Origin: Oscillospiraceae bacterium | GTDB taxonomy: Bacteria; Bacillota; Clostridia; Oscillospirales; Ruminococcaceae | Direction of reading: 5' to 3' | Assembly (NCBI GenBank): GCA_022768545.1 | Contig: JALELV010000022.1 | Span: 1 to 64,000 of the forward strand | Length of the DNA stretch: 64,000 nt | Shown here: one piece after another, positions 9,900 to 17,218 of the stretch | Numbering within the stretch: position 1 is the first letter of the stretch | Layout of the letters: the number at the start of each line of letters is the position of its first letter | Program-made: the position numbers and the translations under genes | The notes under the pieces: generated by a model | Databases searched by the model: none | What the model was told of the DNA's origin: nothing | What the model saw: the letters and a program-made list of their open reading frames with translations, nothing else

Positions 9900-10574
9900 A
9901 TGAAGATCCCAAAGGGGGCTATCTTTGACCTGGATGGCACGCTGCTCGATTCCATGGGCGTATGGCGGGAGATCGATGTGGAATTTTTGGCTCGGAGGGG
10001 CTTTTCGGTGCCGGATGACTATATCCGGGCCATCACGGCCATGCACTATCAGGCGGCGGCGGAATACACCATACAGCGCTTTGGCCTGCGGGAGCGGCCG
10101 GAGGACGTGGTGGCGGAGTGGAACCATATGGCGGAGGAGATCTACGCCCGGCATGTTTTCCTCAAGCCCTTTGCGAGGGAATATTTGGAGCTTTTAAAAA
10201 GCAGCGGCACCCGCATTGCGGCCGCCACCGCTTCCGCGGAGGGGCTGTACCTGCCCGCCCTGCAAAACAACGGTGCCCAGGGGTATTTCGACGCCTTTAC
10301 CACAGTGACGGAAGTCTCCCGGGGAAAGGGCTTCCCCGATATTTACCTTTTGACGGCCCGAAAGCTGGGCCTTGCCCCGGAGGACTGCGTGGTGTATGAG
10401 GACATTTTGGCGGGGGTGCGCGGCGCCAAGGCGGGCGGCTTTTTTGCCTGCGGGGTGTATGACCGCCATTCGGCCTATGAGTGGGAGGAGATCCGGCGTC
10501 TGGCGGACCGGAGCATCACCGGCTGGCAGGAGCTTTTGGGGGAGAGCCTCCGGAAAGGGGAAAAGGATACATGA
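9900..10574 (+). CDS. HAD-superfamily hydrolase, beta-phosphoglucomutase-like
   Basis: The 224-residue protein contains the HAD motif I DLDGTLLDS (D10, D12), motif II around AAATAS, and motif III/IV GFPDIYLLTARKLG...VVYED. A helical cap lies between motifs I and II, as in the beta-PGM/phosphatase subfamily. It probably dephosphorylates a small metabolite; the substrate cannot be read from sequence. The start has a GGGGGAG ribosome site. Its stop overlaps the ATG of the following M20 peptidase gene, implying co-translation. Confidence 0.85.
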   Translation: MKIPKGAIFDLDGTLLDSMGVWREIDVEFLARRGFSVPDDYIRAITAMHYQAAAEYTIQRFGLRERPEDVVAEWNHMAEEIYARHVFLKPFAREYLELLKSSGTRIAAATASAEGLYLPALQNNGAQGYFDAFTTVTEVSRGKGFPDIYLLTARKLGLAPEDCVVYEDILAGVRGAKAGGFFACGVYDRHSAYEWEEIRRLADRSITGWQELLGESLRKGEKDT

Positions 10575-12250
10575 TAGAAGCGGACAAAATTTTGCAGGGG
10601 ATCGACAGGGAGATCCGGGATATTCTCTACCCCTACGTGGCCACGGGCAGTATTTCCAATACGGCGGCGGAGCAAAACGCGGGAACGTTTTTGATGGAGC
10701 TGTTTTCCGGCGTCCCCTATTTTAAGGAGCACCCGGAGCTGTACGGCCTGAGGAGGATCCCGGGTGACCCTCACGGCCGCAGCGCCTTTTGGGCCATGCG
10801 GCGGGGACGGGGGGACCGTACCGTGGTGCTGGTGCACCACAGCGATGTGGTAAGCGTGGAGGATTATAAGCACCTGAAGCAGTGGGCGTTTGAACCGGAC
10901 CGCCTGCGGGAGGAGATGCTCCCCCTGGCGCAGATATTTCCGGAGGACGCCCGGAAGGACCTGGAGAGCGGGGAGTTTCTGTTCGGCCGCGGGTGTACCG
11001 ATATGAAGGGCGGCGGCTCCGTTCAGATCGCCCTGCTTTTGCGCTACGCCGCGCAGGAGGAGTTTGAGGGCAACGTGATCCTGCTGGCAGTGCCGGACGA
11101 AGAAAACCTCTCCGCGGGGATGCTCACCGCCGTGGAACTGCTGCGGGAGCTGAAGGAGCGCTGGGGCCTGAACTACCAAATGATGATCAACTCCGAGCCC
11201 CATCAGCGCAGAAGCCCGGACAAGGGGATGCTGTCCCTGGGTTCGGTGGGCAAAGTGCTGGTGTCCGTCTACGTCCGCGGCTTTCTGGCCCATGCGGGCA
11301 CGGTGTTCAAGGGGCTCAACCCCGTGAGCCTTTTAAGCCGGATCGTGGAAAAGACGGAGCTGAATATGGATTTTTCCGACCATGTGGGAACCGAATGTGC
11401 GCCGCCGCCCACCTGGCTGCAGATGTCTGACGGCAAGACAGGGTACGATGTCTCCCTGCCGCTGAACGCCTTTGGGCTGCTCAGCGTGCTCACCTACCGC
11501 AGCGGCCCCCAGGAGGTGCTGGACAGGGTCAGGATGCTCTCCGGGGAGGCCTTTGCGGAACTTATCGGAGACATGAACCGAAGCTACCGCAGGTTTGCAG
11601 AGATTACCGGGGAAAAGGAAAACGCTCTGCCCTGGGCCCCGGCGGTAGTCACCGTCCAGGAGCTATACCGGGAGGCCGAGGCTGCTTTCGGCAAGGAGTT
11701 TACCGACGATTATGCCGCTACCCTGCAGAAAGCTGCGGAACAGCTGCGGAGGGGAGAGATCACCTCCGCCCAGGCGCAGCTGCAGCTGATCGAACGCATC
11801 TATGTCTATATAGACGATCTTTCCCCCCGGGTGGTGCTGGGGCTCTGCTCCCCCTACTACCCCAACGTCTCCAGCCTGGACTGGAACGGGGAAGCGGAGG
11901 AGATGGCCGAAACCCTGCGGAAGTTTTCAAGTGAGACCTTCGGGCAGGACTATGAGACGGAGTATTTCTTTACCGGTATCTCCGATTTGAGCTACAGCGC
12001 CCTTAAGGACGGCGCCGGGGTGAGGCGGGTGCTGGAGGACGAAATGCTGCTCTTCGGCAGCGGATACCGGATCCCCCTGGAGGATATCGAGGCGGTTTCC
12101 ATGCCCTGCATCAATATCGGACCCTGGGGGAAAGATCTGCACCGCGCCACGGAGCGGGTTTGGAAGGAGGACCTCTATCGCAGGACTCCGGCTCTTTTAA
12201 ACCACGCTGTTCAAACGCTGCTGCGCAGGGAACCAGAGCATGATAGTTGA
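10571..12250 (+). CDS. M20 family peptidase, RocB-like
   Basis: The 559-residue protein matches the long RocB branch of M20 metallopeptidases in length and motifs. These are VLVHHSDVV, FGRGCTDMKGGG with the metal-binding D, DEENLSAGM with the catalytic/metal glutamates, SEPHQ, and GPWGKDLHRATERV near the C-terminus. RocB proteins are linked to arginine/peptide use in Bacillus but the exact reaction is not settled. The start is the ATG overlapping the HAD gene stop (ATGA). The two genes form an operon that ends before the adhE promoter. Confidence 0.85.
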   Translation: MIEADKILQGIDREIRDILYPYVATGSISNTAAEQNAGTFLMELFSGVPYFKEHPELYGLRRIPGDPHGRSAFWAMRRGRGDRTVVLVHHSDVVSVEDYKHLKQWAFEPDRLREEMLPLAQIFPEDARKDLESGEFLFGRGCTDMKGGGSVQIALLLRYAAQEEFEGNVILLAVPDEENLSAGMLTAVELLRELKERWGLNYQMMINSEPHQRRSPDKGMLSLGSVGKVLVSVYVRGFLAHAGTVFKGLNPVSLLSRIVEKTELNMDFSDHVGTECAPPPTWLQMSDGKTGYDVSLPLNAFGLLSVLTYRSGPQEVLDRVRMLSGEAFAELIGDMNRSYRRFAEITGEKENALPWAPAVVTVQELYREAEAAFGKEFTDDYAATLQKAAEQLRRGEITSAQAQLQLIERIYVYIDDLSPRVVLGLCSPYYPNVSSLDWNGEAEEMAETLRKFSSETFGQDYETEYFFTGISDLSYSALKDGAGVRRVLEDEMLLFGSGYRIPLEDIEAVSMPCINIGPWGKDLHRATERVWKEDLYRRTPALLNHAVQTLLRREPEHDS

Positions 12251-12322
12251 TTTTGCCAAAAAATAGCTTCGGAAAGGAGCGCTATTCTCCATAAAGTTTG
12301 ACAAAAATTTATCAAATAAAGC

Positions 12323-12351
12323 TTGACTTTGACAGTCATATTCCATATAAT
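12323..12351 (+). promoter_or_regulatory. adhE promoter
   Basis: TTGACT (12323-12328), a 17-base spacer and TATAAT (12346-12351), almost consensus. A Rex-type operator begins two bases after the -10, so a bound repressor would cover the start site. Confidence 0.9.
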
Positions 12352-12352
12352 A

Positions 12353-12370
12353 TTGTTAGAAAATTAACAA
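12353..12370 (+). promoter_or_regulatory. Rex-type redox operator at adhE
   Basis: TTGTTAGAAAATTAACAA is an 18-bp inverted repeat with TTGTTA and TAACAA arms, close to the clostridial Rex box. Rex represses fermentation genes when NADH is low and releases at high NADH/NAD+. Its position at the adhE start site fits this. No rex gene is in this window. Confidence 0.87.
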
Positions 12371-12408
12371 GCACAATGCCCCACAAACAATTTTGGGAGG
12401 TAATGAAT

Positions 12409-15024
12409 ATGGCAGAGAAAGCAAAGAAAGCACCCGCAGAGAGTTCCGTGGACGTTTCCGCCATGATCGACACACTGGTTGGCAAAGCGCAGAAAGCACT
12501 GGCCAAGTTTATGGAGATGGACCAGGAGACGGTGGACAGTATCGTCCACGAGATGTCCCTGGCCGGTCTGGATGCCCACGAGAAACTGGCCAAAATGGCA
12601 GTGGACGAGACCGGGCGGGGCGTCTACGAGGATAAAGTGATCAAAAATATGTTTGCCACCGAGTACATCTGGCACAGCATCAAGCACCAGCAGACGGTGG
12701 GCGTAGTGGACGAAAACGAGATGGAAGGCTATGTGGAAGTTGCGGAGCCGGTGGGCGTGATCTGCGGCGTCACCCCTACCACCAACCCAACCTCCACCAC
12801 TCTGTTTAAAAGCATCATCGCCATGAAGACCCGCAACCCCATCATCTTCGGGTTCCATCCTTCCGCGCAGAAGTGCTCCGCCGAAGCGGCGCGCATCGTC
12901 TATGAGGCGGCCCGGAAGGCGGGCGCCCCCGAGGACTGCATCCAGTGGATCGATACCCCCTCCGTGGAGGCCACCAATACCCTGATGCGCCACCCCGACG
13001 TGGCTACCATCCTGGCCACCGGCGGCCCCGGCATGGTGAAAGCGGCTTATTCCGCCGGAAAGCCCGCCCTGGGTGTGGGCCCCGGCAACGTTCCCTGCTA
13101 CATTGAAAAGACCTGCGACCTCAAACAGGCCTGCACCGATCTGATGATGTCCAAGACCTTCGACAACGGCATGATCTGCGCCTCCGAGCAGGCGGCCATC
13201 GTGGATCAGGAGATCAAGGATGAATTTGAAAAGATCATGAAGGCGAACAACTGCTACTTCCTGAACAAGGAGGAGACCGAAAAGCTGACCGCCTTCGCCA
13301 TGAACGCGGAAAAACAGGCGGTCAACCCCGTCATCGTGGGTAAATCCGCCAACTGGATCGCCGAGCAGGCGGGCCTCAAGGTGCCGGAAAAAACCAAGAT
13401 CCTGCTGGCGCCTCTGCCGGAGCCCAGCGAGAAATATCTTCTCTCCCGCGAGAAGCTCAGCCCCATCCTGGCCTACTTTGTGGCAAAGGACACCGAGGAG
13501 GGCTTCCGCTTTGCAAACAAGATGCTGGAGCTGGGCGGCCTGGGGCATTCCGCGGTCATCCACACCGGCAACAATGACCTGGCCGAGCGCTACGGGCAGG
13601 AGATGAAGGTGGGACGCATCATCGTCAACTCCCCCTCCTCCCAGGGTGCCATCGGCGATATCTACAACACCAACACGCCTTCTCTCACCCTGGGCTGCGG
13701 CTCCTATGGCGGAAACTCTGTTTCCCAGAACGTCTCCACGGTCAACCTGGTGAACAAAAAGCGCATTGCCAAGAGGAGAGTCAATATGCAGTGGTTCAAG
13801 ATCCCCCCGAAGATCTACTTTGAGGAGGACTCCATCCAATACCTGGAGAAGATGCCCGATATCAGCAGGGCCTTCATCGTTACCGACCCCATGATGGTGA
13901 AGCTGGGCAACATCGACAAGATCCTCTATTACCTCCGCAAACGCACCGAGTACTGCCACAGCGAAATCTATGCCGACGTGGAGCCGGACCCCTCCGTGGA
14001 GTGCATCATGAAGGGTGTGGCGGCCATGAACGCCTTCCAGCCCGATGTGATCATCGCCGTGGGCGGCGGCAGCGCCATCGATGCCGCCAAGGGGATGTGG
14101 CTGTTCTATGAGCACCCCGACACCTCTTTTGACGGCCTGCGGCTGCGGTTTTTGGATATCCGCAAGCGTACCTTCCAGTTCCCGAAGCTGGGCAAAAAGA
14201 CGCAGCTCGTGGCGATTCCCACCACCTCCGGCACCGGCTCCGAGGTGACCAGCTTCTCGGTAATCACCGACAAGGCAAACGGCAACATCAAGTACCCCCT
14301 GGCCGACTACGAACTCACCCCGGATGTGGCGATCATCGACCCGCAGTTCTGCATGTCCATGCCCAAATCCATCACCGCCGATACCGGCCTGGATGTTCTG
14401 ACCCATGCGCTGGAGGCCTATGTCTCCGTTATGGCGTCGGATTACACCGACGGCCTGGCCATCAAGGCCATCGAGCTGGTGTTCGACTATCTGAGAAGGG
14501 CTTATCGCAACGGCTCTGAGGACAAGGAGGCCCGCGAGAAGATGCACAACGCCTCCGCCATCGCCGGCATGGCTTTTACCAACGCCTTCCTGGGCCTCAA
14601 CCATTCCATGGCCCATAAGCTGGGAGGGGAATACCACATTCCCCACGGCCGCGCCAACGCCATCCTGCTGCCCTATGTCATCGCCTACAACGCCCAGAAG
14701 CCCACGAAATTTGCAGCCTTCCCCAAATACAAGGAGTTTGTGGCCGACCAAAAATATGCGAAGATAGCCCGCTACCTGGGCTTGCCCGCCCGCACCACCG
14801 AGGAGGGCGTGGCGTCCCTGATCCAGGCGGTGCGCGACCTGATGCGCGACCTGGAGCGCCCCATGAGCATTCGGGAGTGCGGCGTGGACGAAGCCCTTTG
14901 GAAGAGCCGGGTGGAGGAGCTCTCTTACCGCGCCTTTGAGGACCAGTGCACCACGGCAAACCCCCGCTACCCCCTGGTCAGCGAGATCGAAGAGATCTAC
15001 AACAAAGCTTATTTCGGAGAATAA
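12409..15024 (+). CDS. adhE: Bifunctional acetaldehyde-CoA/alcohol dehydrogenase
   Basis: The 871-residue protein has the usual AdhE two-domain layout. The N-terminal CoA-acylating aldehyde dehydrogenase (about residues 20-450) carries the catalytic cysteine in GMICASEQ (C257). The C-terminal iron-dependent alcohol dehydrogenase (about 465-871) has GGGSAID and the metal-binding His cluster in LNHSMAHKLGGEYHIPHG. It converts acetyl-CoA to ethanol, regenerating two NAD+. The ATG at 12409 is preferred over 12403 because GGGAGG then sits nine bases upstream. It is a single-gene unit with its own promoter and Rex box. Confidence 0.96.
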   Translation: MAEKAKKAPAESSVDVSAMIDTLVGKAQKALAKFMEMDQETVDSIVHEMSLAGLDAHEKLAKMAVDETGRGVYEDKVIKNMFATEYIWHSIKHQQTVGVVDENEMEGYVEVAEPVGVICGVTPTTNPTSTTLFKSIIAMKTRNPIIFGFHPSAQKCSAEAARIVYEAARKAGAPEDCIQWIDTPSVEATNTLMRHPDVATILATGGPGMVKAAYSAGKPALGVGPGNVPCYIEKTCDLKQACTDLMMSKTFDNGMICASEQAAIVDQEIKDEFEKIMKANNCYFLNKEETEKLTAFAMNAEKQAVNPVIVGKSANWIAEQAGLKVPEKTKILLAPLPEPSEKYLLSREKLSPILAYFVAKDTEEGFRFANKMLELGGLGHSAVIHTGNNDLAERYGQEMKVGRIIVNSPSSQGAIGDIYNTNTPSLTLGCGSYGGNSVSQNVSTVNLVNKKRIAKRRVNMQWFKIPPKIYFEEDSIQYLEKMPDISRAFIVTDPMMVKLGNIDKILYYLRKRTEYCHSEIYADVEPDPSVECIMKGVAAMNAFQPDVIIAVGGGSAIDAAKGMWLFYEHPDTSFDGLRLRFLDIRKRTFQFPKLGKKTQLVAIPTTSGTGSEVTSFSVITDKANGNIKYPLADYELTPDVAIIDPQFCMSMPKSITADTGLDVLTHALEAYVSVMASDYTDGLAIKAIELVFDYLRRAYRNGSEDKEAREKMHNASAIAGMAFTNAFLGLNHSMAHKLGGEYHIPHGRANAILLPYVIAYNAQKPTKFAAFPKYKEFVADQKYAKIARYLGLPARTTEEGVASLIQAVRDLMRDLERPMSIRECGVDEALWKSRVEELSYRAFEDQCTTANPRYPLVSEIEEIYNKAYFGE

Positions 15025-15063: not shown

Positions 15064-15098
15064 CCAAAGGCCCGCGGATATTTTCCGCGGGCCTTTGG
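15064..15098 (+). terminator. Hairpin after adhE, no T-tract
   Basis: A 15-bp perfect stem (CCAAAGGCCCGCGGA, 15064-15078, with 15084-15098) around a TATTT loop. No T-run follows directly, so termination may be inefficient or rely on the T-rich 3' arm. Confidence 0.6.
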
Positions 15099-15220: not shown

Positions 15221-15248
15221 TTGACTTTTGTGTAGGGGAAACTATAAT
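15221..15248 (+). promoter_or_regulatory. Promoter of the lysine riboswitch leader
   Basis: TTGACT (15221-15226), a 16-base spacer and TATAAT (15243-15248). Transcription would start about 15 bases before the aptamer. Confidence 0.85.
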
Positions 15249-15269
15249 GGGGGTGTCAAATGAATACAG

Positions 15270-15435
15270 TATGATAGAGGCGCGGCTGTCAGGAGTAGGC
15301 TTTCTCAGAGAGACAGGCATCGCAAAAGCCCAAAGGGGCTGCCGCCGAAGCGCCAAAGAAGTGCCTGCTTTTTTGGTTGCTGGTTCGTCGGATAAGATCC
15401 GCCGGACTGTCACAGAAATGTGGAGTGCTGTCACA
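15270..15435 (+). ncRNA. Lysine riboswitch (L box)
   Basis: The leader carries the conserved L-box blocks in order: ATAGAGGCGCG, TCAGGAGTA, AAAGGGGCTGCCGCCGAAGC, and the 3' block GGAGTGCTGTCA. The 5' TGATAG (15272-15277) pairs with CTGTCA (15428-15433) to form P1. A strong terminator follows at 15465, so lysine binding should stop transcription of the downstream transporter. The identification rests on motif order and P1 pairing seen by eye. Confidence 0.9.
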
Positions 15436-15464
15436 CGACGGGGCGGAGCAAAAGCTCCTCCGGC

Positions 15465-15506
15465 TTGTCATGATCAGTATCTGCTGTATCATGACAATTT
15501 TTTTTT
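15465..15506 (+). terminator. Riboswitch-controlled terminator
   Basis: TTGTCATGAT (15465-15474) pairs with ATCATGACAA (15488-15497) and is followed by nine T residues. It lies between the lysine aptamer and the transporter's ribosome site and is the expected OFF-state element. Confidence 0.9.
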
Positions 15507-15521
15507 GAGGAGTTTTGCGAA

Positions 15522-17168
15522 ATGAAGAGAAACCAAAGGCTGCTGGCCGCTGTACTGCTGGCTGCGGCGCTGGCGGCACTGCTTTCCCTCACCGCCTTTG
15601 CAGAAGGGGAGGGCACCGAGTATGCAAGCCCGATGTACGGTACCTTCTGGGCCCTGATCCCGCCGGTGGTGGCGATCGTGCTGGCCCTCATCACCAAGGA
15701 GGTCTATTCCTCCCTGTTTATCGGCATCCTCACCGGCGGCCTGTTTTACGCGGGCTTTTCCCCGGTGCGGGCTCTGGACACCATTGTAAACGACGGGCTG
15801 ATCGCCGGGGTATCCGACAGCTGGAACGCCGGCATTTTCCTGTTCCTGGTGCTGCTGGGTATTATGGTAGCCCTTATCAACAAGGCAGGCGGCTCCGCTG
15901 CCTTTGGGCGCTGGGCGCAGAGGAGGATCAAGACCCGGGTGGGCGCCATGCTGGCCACCTTTGTGCTGGGCGTGCTTATCTTTGTAGACGATTACTTTAA
16001 CTGCCTCACCGTGGGCTCCGTTATGCGCCCCGTCACCGACGGACACAAGGTCTCCCGGGCGAAGTTTGCTTATCTGATCGACGCCACGGCAGCCCCGGTG
16101 TGCATGATCGCCCCCATCTCATCCTGGGCGGCGGCGGTCTCCGGCATGGTGGACGAGGGGGTATACAGTGGTATTGAGCTGTTTGTCCGGGCCATCCCTT
16201 ATAATTTTTATTCGCTGCTCACTTTTGTCTTTATTGTGGCGATGGTGGCGCTGAAGGTGGACTACGGCCCCATGCGGCTGCACGAGTGGAACGCCCAGAA
16301 CAATGGAGATCTTTTCACCTCCGGCAGTGTCGTCGGGAATGACGAAGGGCTGGAGGCCTCTGAGAGAGGCCGGGTTTTCGACTTGCTCATCCCCATCCTG
16401 TTTTTGATCGTGTTCTGCGTGGTAGGAATGATCTATGTGGGCGGCTTCTGGGACGGCGCCGACTTTATCTCTGCCTTTGGCAATACCGACGCCTCCGTGG
16501 GCCTGCCCTGGGGCGCCCTGATTGCCCTCATGGCCACCTTTATCTATCTGATCGCCCGCCGGGTGGTCACCTTCAAGGAGGCCATGGGTTGTGTCACCAA
16601 GGGCTTTGTGGCCATGGTGCCCGCCCTTCTCATTCTCACCTTTGCCATCACGCTGAAAAATATGACCGGCCTGCTGGGGGCAGACGCCTTTGTGGCCGGC
16701 ATGATGGAGGGAGCCGCGGCCGGGCTGCAAAACTTCCTTCCCGCGGTGATCTTCCTGGTGGCCTGCGGCCTTGCCTTTGCCACCGGTACCAGCTGGGGTA
16801 CCTTCGGGATCCTGATCCCCATTGTGGTGGCAGTGTTCCCTGCCGGCGGTGAGCTGATGATCATCGGTATTTCGGCCTGTCTGGCGGGTGCCGTCTGCGG
16901 CGACCACTGCTCGCCCATTTCCGATACCACCATCATGTCTTCCGCGGGCGCCCAGTGCGACCACGTAAACCATGTATCCACCCAGCTGCCCTATGCCGTC
17001 ACGGTGGCAGCGGTGAGCTTTGTGTGCTTTATCGCGGCCGGCGTCATCCAAAACGCGGTGATTTGCCTTGCCATGGGCGTGGCGCTGATCGTGGGCACCC
17101 TGGTGCTGATCAAAGTGATCCTGGGCAGTTCCGAACCCAGGAGAAAAGCGGCTCCGGTAGGAAAATGA
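15522..17168 (+). CDS. NhaC-family transporter under lysine control (LysW-type)
   Basis: The 548-residue protein has an N-terminal signal-like helix and about a dozen transmembrane segments. It carries the NhaC-superfamily signature CGDHCSPISDTTIMSSAG near residue 460. By family it would be called an Na+/H+ antiporter. The lysine riboswitch directly upstream makes a lysine transporter much more likely, as proposed for riboswitch-linked NhaC proteins called LysW. The start has GAGGAG about ten bases upstream. It is a single-gene unit with its own terminator. The family assignment is firm; the substrate is inferred from regulation. Confidence 0.88.
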   Translation: MKRNQRLLAAVLLAAALAALLSLTAFAEGEGTEYASPMYGTFWALIPPVVAIVLALITKEVYSSLFIGILTGGLFYAGFSPVRALDTIVNDGLIAGVSDSWNAGIFLFLVLLGIMVALINKAGGSAAFGRWAQRRIKTRVGAMLATFVLGVLIFVDDYFNCLTVGSVMRPVTDGHKVSRAKFAYLIDATAAPVCMIAPISSWAAAVSGMVDEGVYSGIELFVRAIPYNFYSLLTFVFIVAMVALKVDYGPMRLHEWNAQNNGDLFTSGSVVGNDEGLEASERGRVFDLLIPILFLIVFCVVGMIYVGGFWDGADFISAFGNTDASVGLPWGALIALMATFIYLIARRVVTFKEAMGCVTKGFVAMVPALLILTFAITLKNMTGLLGADAFVAGMMEGAAAGLQNFLPAVIFLVACGLAFATGTSWGTFGILIPIVVAVFPAGGELMIIGISACLAGAVCGDHCSPISDTTIMSSAGAQCDHVNHVSTQLPYAVTVAAVSFVCFIAAGVIQNAVICLAMGVALIVGTLVLIKVILGSSEPRRKAAPVGK

Positions 17169-17186
17169 CTGGGCCCAAAAGGCAAA

Positions 17187-17218
17187 GAAGGCTTCCCCCG
17201 GAGGAAGCCTTCTTTTTT
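17187..17218 (+). terminator. Intrinsic terminator of the transporter gene
   Basis: A 10-bp perfect stem (GAAGGCTTCC with GGAAGCCTTC), a 6-nt loop and six T residues. Confidence 0.9.

Follow-up and report, generated by a model that had tools for sequence, protein, structure and literature searches.

A lysine riboswitch before an NhaC-superfamily gene of an Oscillospiraceae bacterium: a predicted lysW-type lysine transporter

The closest described system is lysW (COG1757), listed as 'na+ h+ antiporter (nhaC)', a lysine-riboswitch-controlled transporter known from earlier work. The passages of PMC5584792 (Mukherjee et al. 2017) that deal with lysW report it from Vibrionales, state about 11 transmembrane segments for transporters of this type and repeat a suggested role in pH control. 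The prediction that it transports lysine is credited to Rodionov et al. 2003 in the relevant passage of PMC2211319. In Clostridioides difficile, CD1655 likewise combines a lysine riboswitch with an NhaC-like gene, and the part of a 2024 review that covers it treats both lysine transport and Na+/H+ antiport as possible for a gene of unknown function (PMC11477304). For Exiguobacterium, passages of PMC5399880 annotate one NhaC-family protein as a lysine transporter on the ground of its riboswitch; a second, whose gene follows a SAM riboswitch, is annotated there as transporting methionine. In PMC12186487 an NhaC gene of Fusobacterium is named solely as the target of a regulator, and PMC12764776 mentions neither NhaC nor LysW. 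A lysine transport assay for LysW was not found in the literature searched, in which subscription papers were few, and one may exist.

The unit described here occupies positions 15221-17168 of a 64-kb stretch of DNA from a gut-type Oscillospiraceae bacterium (the window, 64,000 nucleotides). It has the same RNA class directly upstream and the same protein superfamily as lysW, with no essential difference: an NhaC-superfamily gene lies directly behind a lysine riboswitch, the arrangement by which a lysW-type unit is recognised. The same arrangement is seen in CD1655, as likened by its published description (passages of PMC11477304). The metT gene, an NhaC-superfamily gene controlled by a SAM riboswitch and predicted to transport methionine (passages of PMC2940859 and PMC5399880), is alike in superfamily and in regulation-based annotation logic, but differs in riboswitch and predicted substrate. 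The unit is well-formed and ordinary, and pairings of this kind have long been taken in print as the mark of a predicted lysine transporter. It is probably a lysW-type lysine uptake gene that is switched off by lysine.

The riboswitch leader and its control elements

When the 64-kb window was searched against 4227 Rfam families (cmscan), the lysine riboswitch was the only riboswitch found at gathering thresholds, the other Rfam match being a tRNA. The match at 15267-15438 (+) spans the whole RF00168 model (1-182). A covariance search of this kind was among the checks proposed in a preliminary description of the locus, and at 94 bits, compared with a gathering score of 30 bits, the result is far beyond chance. 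Aligned to the Rfam consensus, the aptamer shows the five-helix junction and the conserved core, with P1 formed by 15272-15277 paired with 15428-15433. Together with 23 other lysine riboswitches from the source genome and its relatives, it has 33 invariant columns, and two-sided changes occur in 34 of the 44 consensus pairs. The covariation score of this 24-sequence alignment is 0.70, compared with 0.24 in shuffles and 0.15-0.19 with slid partners. The structure used for these counts came from the alignment itself, a choice that works in favour of covariation; the independent evidence is the Rfam match.

Table 1. Features of the riboswitch-transporter unit, in window coordinates
Feature	Position	Strand	Basis
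Sigma-70-like promoter, TTGACT - 16 nt - TATAAT	15221-15248	+	11/12 consensus positions
Lysine riboswitch aptamer (L-box), full length	15267-15438	+	RF00168, cmscan 94 bits, E 1.4e-23
Candidate antiterminator hairpin (predicted)	15434-15472	+	Folding only, -17.4 kcal/mol alone
Intrinsic terminator: 10-bp perfect stem 15465-15474 / 15488-15497, nine T 15498-15506	15465-15506	+	Sequence, folding
Shine-Dalgarno-like GAGGAG, directly behind the terminator T-run	15507-15512	+	Sequence
lysW-type NhaC-superfamily transporter, 548 aa (predicted), ATG at 15522	15522-17168	+	PF03553, 170.4 bits, E 7e-50
Terminator-like hairpin, 13-pair stem and T tail, ending the transcription unit	17184-17215	+	Terminator scan

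Promoter-like sites of the grade listed in Table 1 numbered 4 in the 2.4 kb scanned, compared with 1.4 expected. The preliminary description began the unit at 15221, where the -35 hexamer opens; the aptamer proper begins at 15267. The open reading frame lies where that description placed it, its coordinates are right, and its view that aptamer, terminator and transporter form a single regulatory unit is borne out by the promoter-like site upstream and by the hairpin that closes a single gene downstream. In a same-genus relative (L006), TTGACT and TATAAT are found by eye at a like place, and the aptamer and terminator recur. The terminator stem of this relative, also compared by eye, has one two-sided change, from T-A to C-G, that keeps the pairing.

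The terminator hairpin has a folding energy of -16.0 kcal/mol; it was absent from a simple terminator scan because its loop exceeds the 3-8 bases that the scan covers. The candidate antiterminator overlaps the 5' arm of the terminator at 15465-15472 and an extension of P1 at part of 15434-15436. In simple folding, the free-energy minimum contains the terminator whether or not P1 is formed, and P1 and the antiterminator hairpin are compatible; the OFF direction proposed below follows the known behaviour of the riboswitch class, not these leader folds. When P1 is forced, a CTCC stretch in the leader pairs with the Shine-Dalgarno region, and translational control through sequestration of the ribosome-binding site was considered as an alternative, although a perfect hairpin followed by nine T is the simpler reading. 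Across homologues, 59 of the 67 leaders with a riboswitch (counting the window's) contain a terminator-like hairpin; the figure is 4.8% for 670 base-shuffled leaders and 4 of 69 for leaders that have no riboswitch.

Just upstream, at 12298-15024 (+), lies a gene for an AdhE-like bifunctional aldehyde/alcohol dehydrogenase (PF00171, PF00465, PF25137), separated from the riboswitch unit by a strong GC hairpin near 15069-15098 that was recognised by eye. Further upstream, a 589-aa frame at 10481-12250 (+) has no Pfam match at E 1e-10, though its sequence resembles an M20-type peptidase.

The carrier protein and its family

The 548-aa protein is a member of PF03553 (Na_H_antiporter), scoring 170.4 bits with a gathering score of 23. 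NCBIfam gave three matches, none of which reaches its cut-off. The highest is to Tet(35) (NF000013), a tetracycline efflux transporter of the Na+/H+ antiporter family, at 202.6 bits over residues 193-532 with a curated cut-off of 750, and with a sequence score of this size no resistance claim is made for the protein. The arginine/ornithine antiporter family ArcD follows at 32.9 bits (E 3e-8, cut-off 650), and the NhaC equivalog TIGR00931 at 29.1 bits, compared with a cut-off of 370. NhaC and MleN belong to the same superfamily as the window protein. As a side observation, Tet(35) was described in Vibrionales, the group from which lysW is also reported, and it is the best NCBIfam match of these proteins; Tet(35) itself may be a lysW-type gene.

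A search of the PDB for solved structures related by sequence to the 548-aa protein found none. An AlphaFold2 model built from 37 sequences (pLDDT 84.2, pTM 0.82) is all-helical, and Foldseek matched it to 36 PDB chains at E <= 0.001. Comparisons with this model (VIA) gave Z 23.4 for human NaS1 (405 residues, rmsd 4.0), Z 22.6 for NaDC3 (419 residues, rmsd 4.1), Z 20.1 for ArsB (397 residues, rmsd 5.1) and Z 20.0 for MleN (PDB 9a59, an integrative model; 417 residues, rmsd 4.5), the last with a like fold at 15% identity. With matches across most of the chain, the model has the fold of the IT superfamily, which we take to group DASS, TRAP, AbgT, ArsB and MleN. ArsB and MleN themselves exchange ions. 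The predicted fold is thus common to carriers of organic and inorganic solutes; it would fit solute carriage and names no substrate. The preliminary description had warned that a 'Na+/H+ antiporter' label would be misleading, and the label does appear weakly founded, as the NhaC equivalog is missed widely and the fold is common to solute carriers. A search for a lysine-specific residue signature found none, the invariant residues being common to riboswitch-free outer relatives.

Residues 1-31 resemble a signal peptide or an extra helix. Within the clade of 125 homologues that holds the riboswitch-bearing genes (see below), 95 carry such a hydrophobic, signal-peptide-like N-terminal extension, compared with none of 14 outer relatives; it is found in 53 of the 67 members with the switch and in 42 of the 58 that have no switch or too short an upstream sequence. 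This is a possible point of difference from lysW, for which the passages of PMC5584792 do not mention an N-terminal segment of this kind. Some of the more distant homologues, with and without the switch, also carry the extension.

A separate observation concerns 25 of 139 homologues (L016, L019, L067, L068, L075, L089 and 19 more), in which at least two CxxC motifs follow the hydrophobic segment of the N-terminus and precede the carrier. A lysine riboswitch accompanies 15 of these 25, and the window protein has no such motifs. The segment is like a DnaJ zinc finger, with PF00684 scores of 31.8 bits (L067) and 28.0 bits (L068), compared with a cut-off of 32.7, and 14 bits in L089, while L016 and L119 gave no match. 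This cysteine-rich domain perhaps faces outside.

The riboswitch across genomes and homologues

The source genome is a draft (128 contigs, 89% complete) in which two lysine riboswitches were found, one here and one before asd (aspartate-semialdehyde dehydrogenase), which encodes a lysine-pathway enzyme. Since lysA is also present, lysine is probably made by the source organism, and the lysine regulon reads as 'make lysine' plus an NhaC-like transporter. A paralogue on another contig, 45% identical, has no Rfam match in front of it. The draft also holds one OKR_DC_1-family decarboxylase gene and two AA_permease genes.

Across 118 genomes of the family, lysine riboswitches sum to 134, and 15 of these lie directly before an NhaC-like gene (coordinates matched by eye); the family and class scans used stricter filters, and may have missed weak riboswitches. 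The genes behind this RNA class were surveyed in 65 sampled riboswitch loci, grouped by the sequence of the first frame downstream; 60 of the loci were among the best-scoring matches listed in the family and class scans (the others were L001, L002 and three more). Eight loci, including the window's, have an NhaC-like gene. The other 57 comprise 37 asd, 6 dapA, 5 amino-acid ABC uptake, 3 lysP-like permease, 1 YfcC-like and 1 APC-type transporter loci, and 4 left unclassified (L050 among them), so that 53 of the 57 head lysine-biosynthesis or transporter genes. Each group was named from one member: asd and dapA pass curated NCBIfam cut-offs, whereas the transporter names have NCBIfam scores below cut-off, backed by Pfam. 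As classified by sequence, the company of the NhaC-like gene behind lysine riboswitches is lysine biosynthesis and amino-acid-type transporters.

Among homologues of the transporter itself, a search with our own covariance model found the riboswitch before 67 of 140 genes, the window's included. These comprise 39 of 80 named loci, which are the closest 80 of at least 592 confirmed, 15 of 29 from a class sample (L145-L173, the best of that sample) and 13 from the family; no locus set here is a random sample. All 67 riboswitches are on the strand of the gene, 56-280 nt before its predicted start. On a tree of 139 of these homologues, built from quick searches and omitting L172 for its in-frame stop, every riboswitch-bearing gene falls inside one clade of 125, which also contains 55 genes without a lysine riboswitch and 3 whose upstream DNA is too short. 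The riboswitch label changes 28 times on this tree, and at least 18 times as judged by starred branches. Two pairs of proteins in the set are identical (L013/L115 and L068/L148). Beyond this clade, the switch precedes four genes that are 44-50% identical, two of them grouping with otherwise riboswitch-free outer relatives, as well as NhaC-like genes of a separate nine-gene clade at 32-37% identity. Twenty regions were picked in the knowledge of which had a riboswitch nearby, so the 13 of 20 with one is not a frequency. The association between the lysine riboswitch and the NhaC-like gene is wide, and readily lost or gained. The 55 switch-free members and 28 label changes indicate that lysine control is dispensable for the transporter. 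L007, for example, has an orthologue that lacks the switch at 70% identity.

For 18 of the riboswitch-free homologues, a search with filters off found nothing above 9 bits, the remaining ones having been searched with default filters only. In several of ten such leaders inspected by eye, an aptamer would not fit beside an upstream gene or a promoter-like site. No lysine T-box or other known RNA, which would have pointed to lysine independently, replaces it in the 31 loci searched, which gave only lysine riboswitches and tRNAs. A hand-made aptamer motif pattern was also tried, and dropped in favour of the covariance model because it was too insensitive and missed riboswitches found by Rfam. As a separate observation, the leader of L152 contains lysine-aptamer-like fragments at about 1240-1470 (AAAGGGATTTTGCCGAA, and CTGTCAT twice) with no score from Rfam or our own model; they may represent a switch that has decayed or changed strongly, or may be coincidental.

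Neighbouring genes were compared by clustering 491 frames from 108 loci and reading by eye the first residues of 22 cluster representatives. No conserved neighbour from lysine metabolism was recognised in this way, nor one from arginine, ornithine or cadaverine metabolism, and the largest cluster, ABC-ATPase-like by eye, covers 9 of the 108 loci.

Predicted function and competing explanations

In the proposed mechanism, RNA polymerase would start just downstream of 15248 and make the lysine aptamer first. With plentiful lysine, the aptamer would close P1, the hairpin at 15465-15497 would form, and transcription would stop before the coding sequence. When lysine is scarce, the terminator would be kept from forming, perhaps through the hairpin at 15434-15472; the 548-aa carrier of the NhaC superfamily would then be made and import lysine, with Na+ or H+ as the presumed coupling ion. 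The known properties of the riboswitch class suggest that the RNA binds lysine and turns expression off, and context suggests lysine as the substrate and import as the direction; switching off in the presence of lysine suits an importer better than an exporter. Four observations favour lysine uptake, namely the missed NhaC equivalog, the solute-carrier fold, the recurrence of the switch in the clade at 32-37% identity, and the genes that 53 of 57 other lysine riboswitches head.

In an unlikely alternative, the protein would exchange basic amino acids or polyamines, for example swapping lysine for ornithine, arginine or cadaverine, and lysine would be just one of its substrates. The weak profile similarity to ArcD points to it, as does the higher ArcD score of a member of the distant riboswitch clade (L207, 52.8 bits), and a broader role would fit the many orthologues that lack the switch. 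However, these ArcD scores are far below the curated cut-off, and no neighbour from such metabolism was recognised in the clustered loci.

It is quite improbable that the protein serves pH control as a genuine Na+/H+ (or K+/H+) antiporter, made when lysine is scarce. Under this explanation, lysine decarboxylation could not consume protons in scarcity, and the antiporter would be made in its place. The Pfam family name agrees with it, as does the decarboxylase gene in the genome, although this was placed by family only. It is also a published alternative (passages of PMC11477304), and the pH role has been repeated (passages of PMC5584792). Against it stand the NhaC equivalog score, far below its cut-off, and the classified non-NhaC genes behind the sampled riboswitches, which are for lysine biosynthesis or amino-acid-type transporters; the best fold matches (DASS carriers, ArsB and MleN) also argue against it, although ion exchange by ArsB and MleN keeps the fold from deciding. 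Little weight is likewise given to a broader version, in which the NhaC clade consists of ion/proton or basic-amino-acid exchangers with an indirect link to lysine, and the switch is a plug-in regulator of ion or pH balance that is gained and lost often and marks no substrate. Finally, the many orthologues without a riboswitch might suggest that the one here has degenerated or lies beside the transporter gene by chance and does not control it. This is hardly credible: the aptamer is full-length and scores well above threshold, the promoter-like site, the terminator and the ribosome-binding site are correctly ordered, and 66 homologues share the layout, most leaders having a terminator-like hairpin.

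With lysine uptake as the preferred reading, the claim of the preliminary description that the riboswitch reassigns an antiporter to lysine transport stands in part. The evidence favours lysine uptake, but the link to lysine is regulatory only and is missing from the switch-free part of the clade, the prediction dates from 2003, and the section of the review on CD1655 leaves Na+/H+ antiport possible (PMC11477304). The findings support relabelling such genes from 'Na+/H+ antiporter' to 'NhaC-superfamily transporter, predicted lysine (LysW-type)', and close orthologues that differ in whether they have the switch provide natural pairs for testing lysine transport by LysW.
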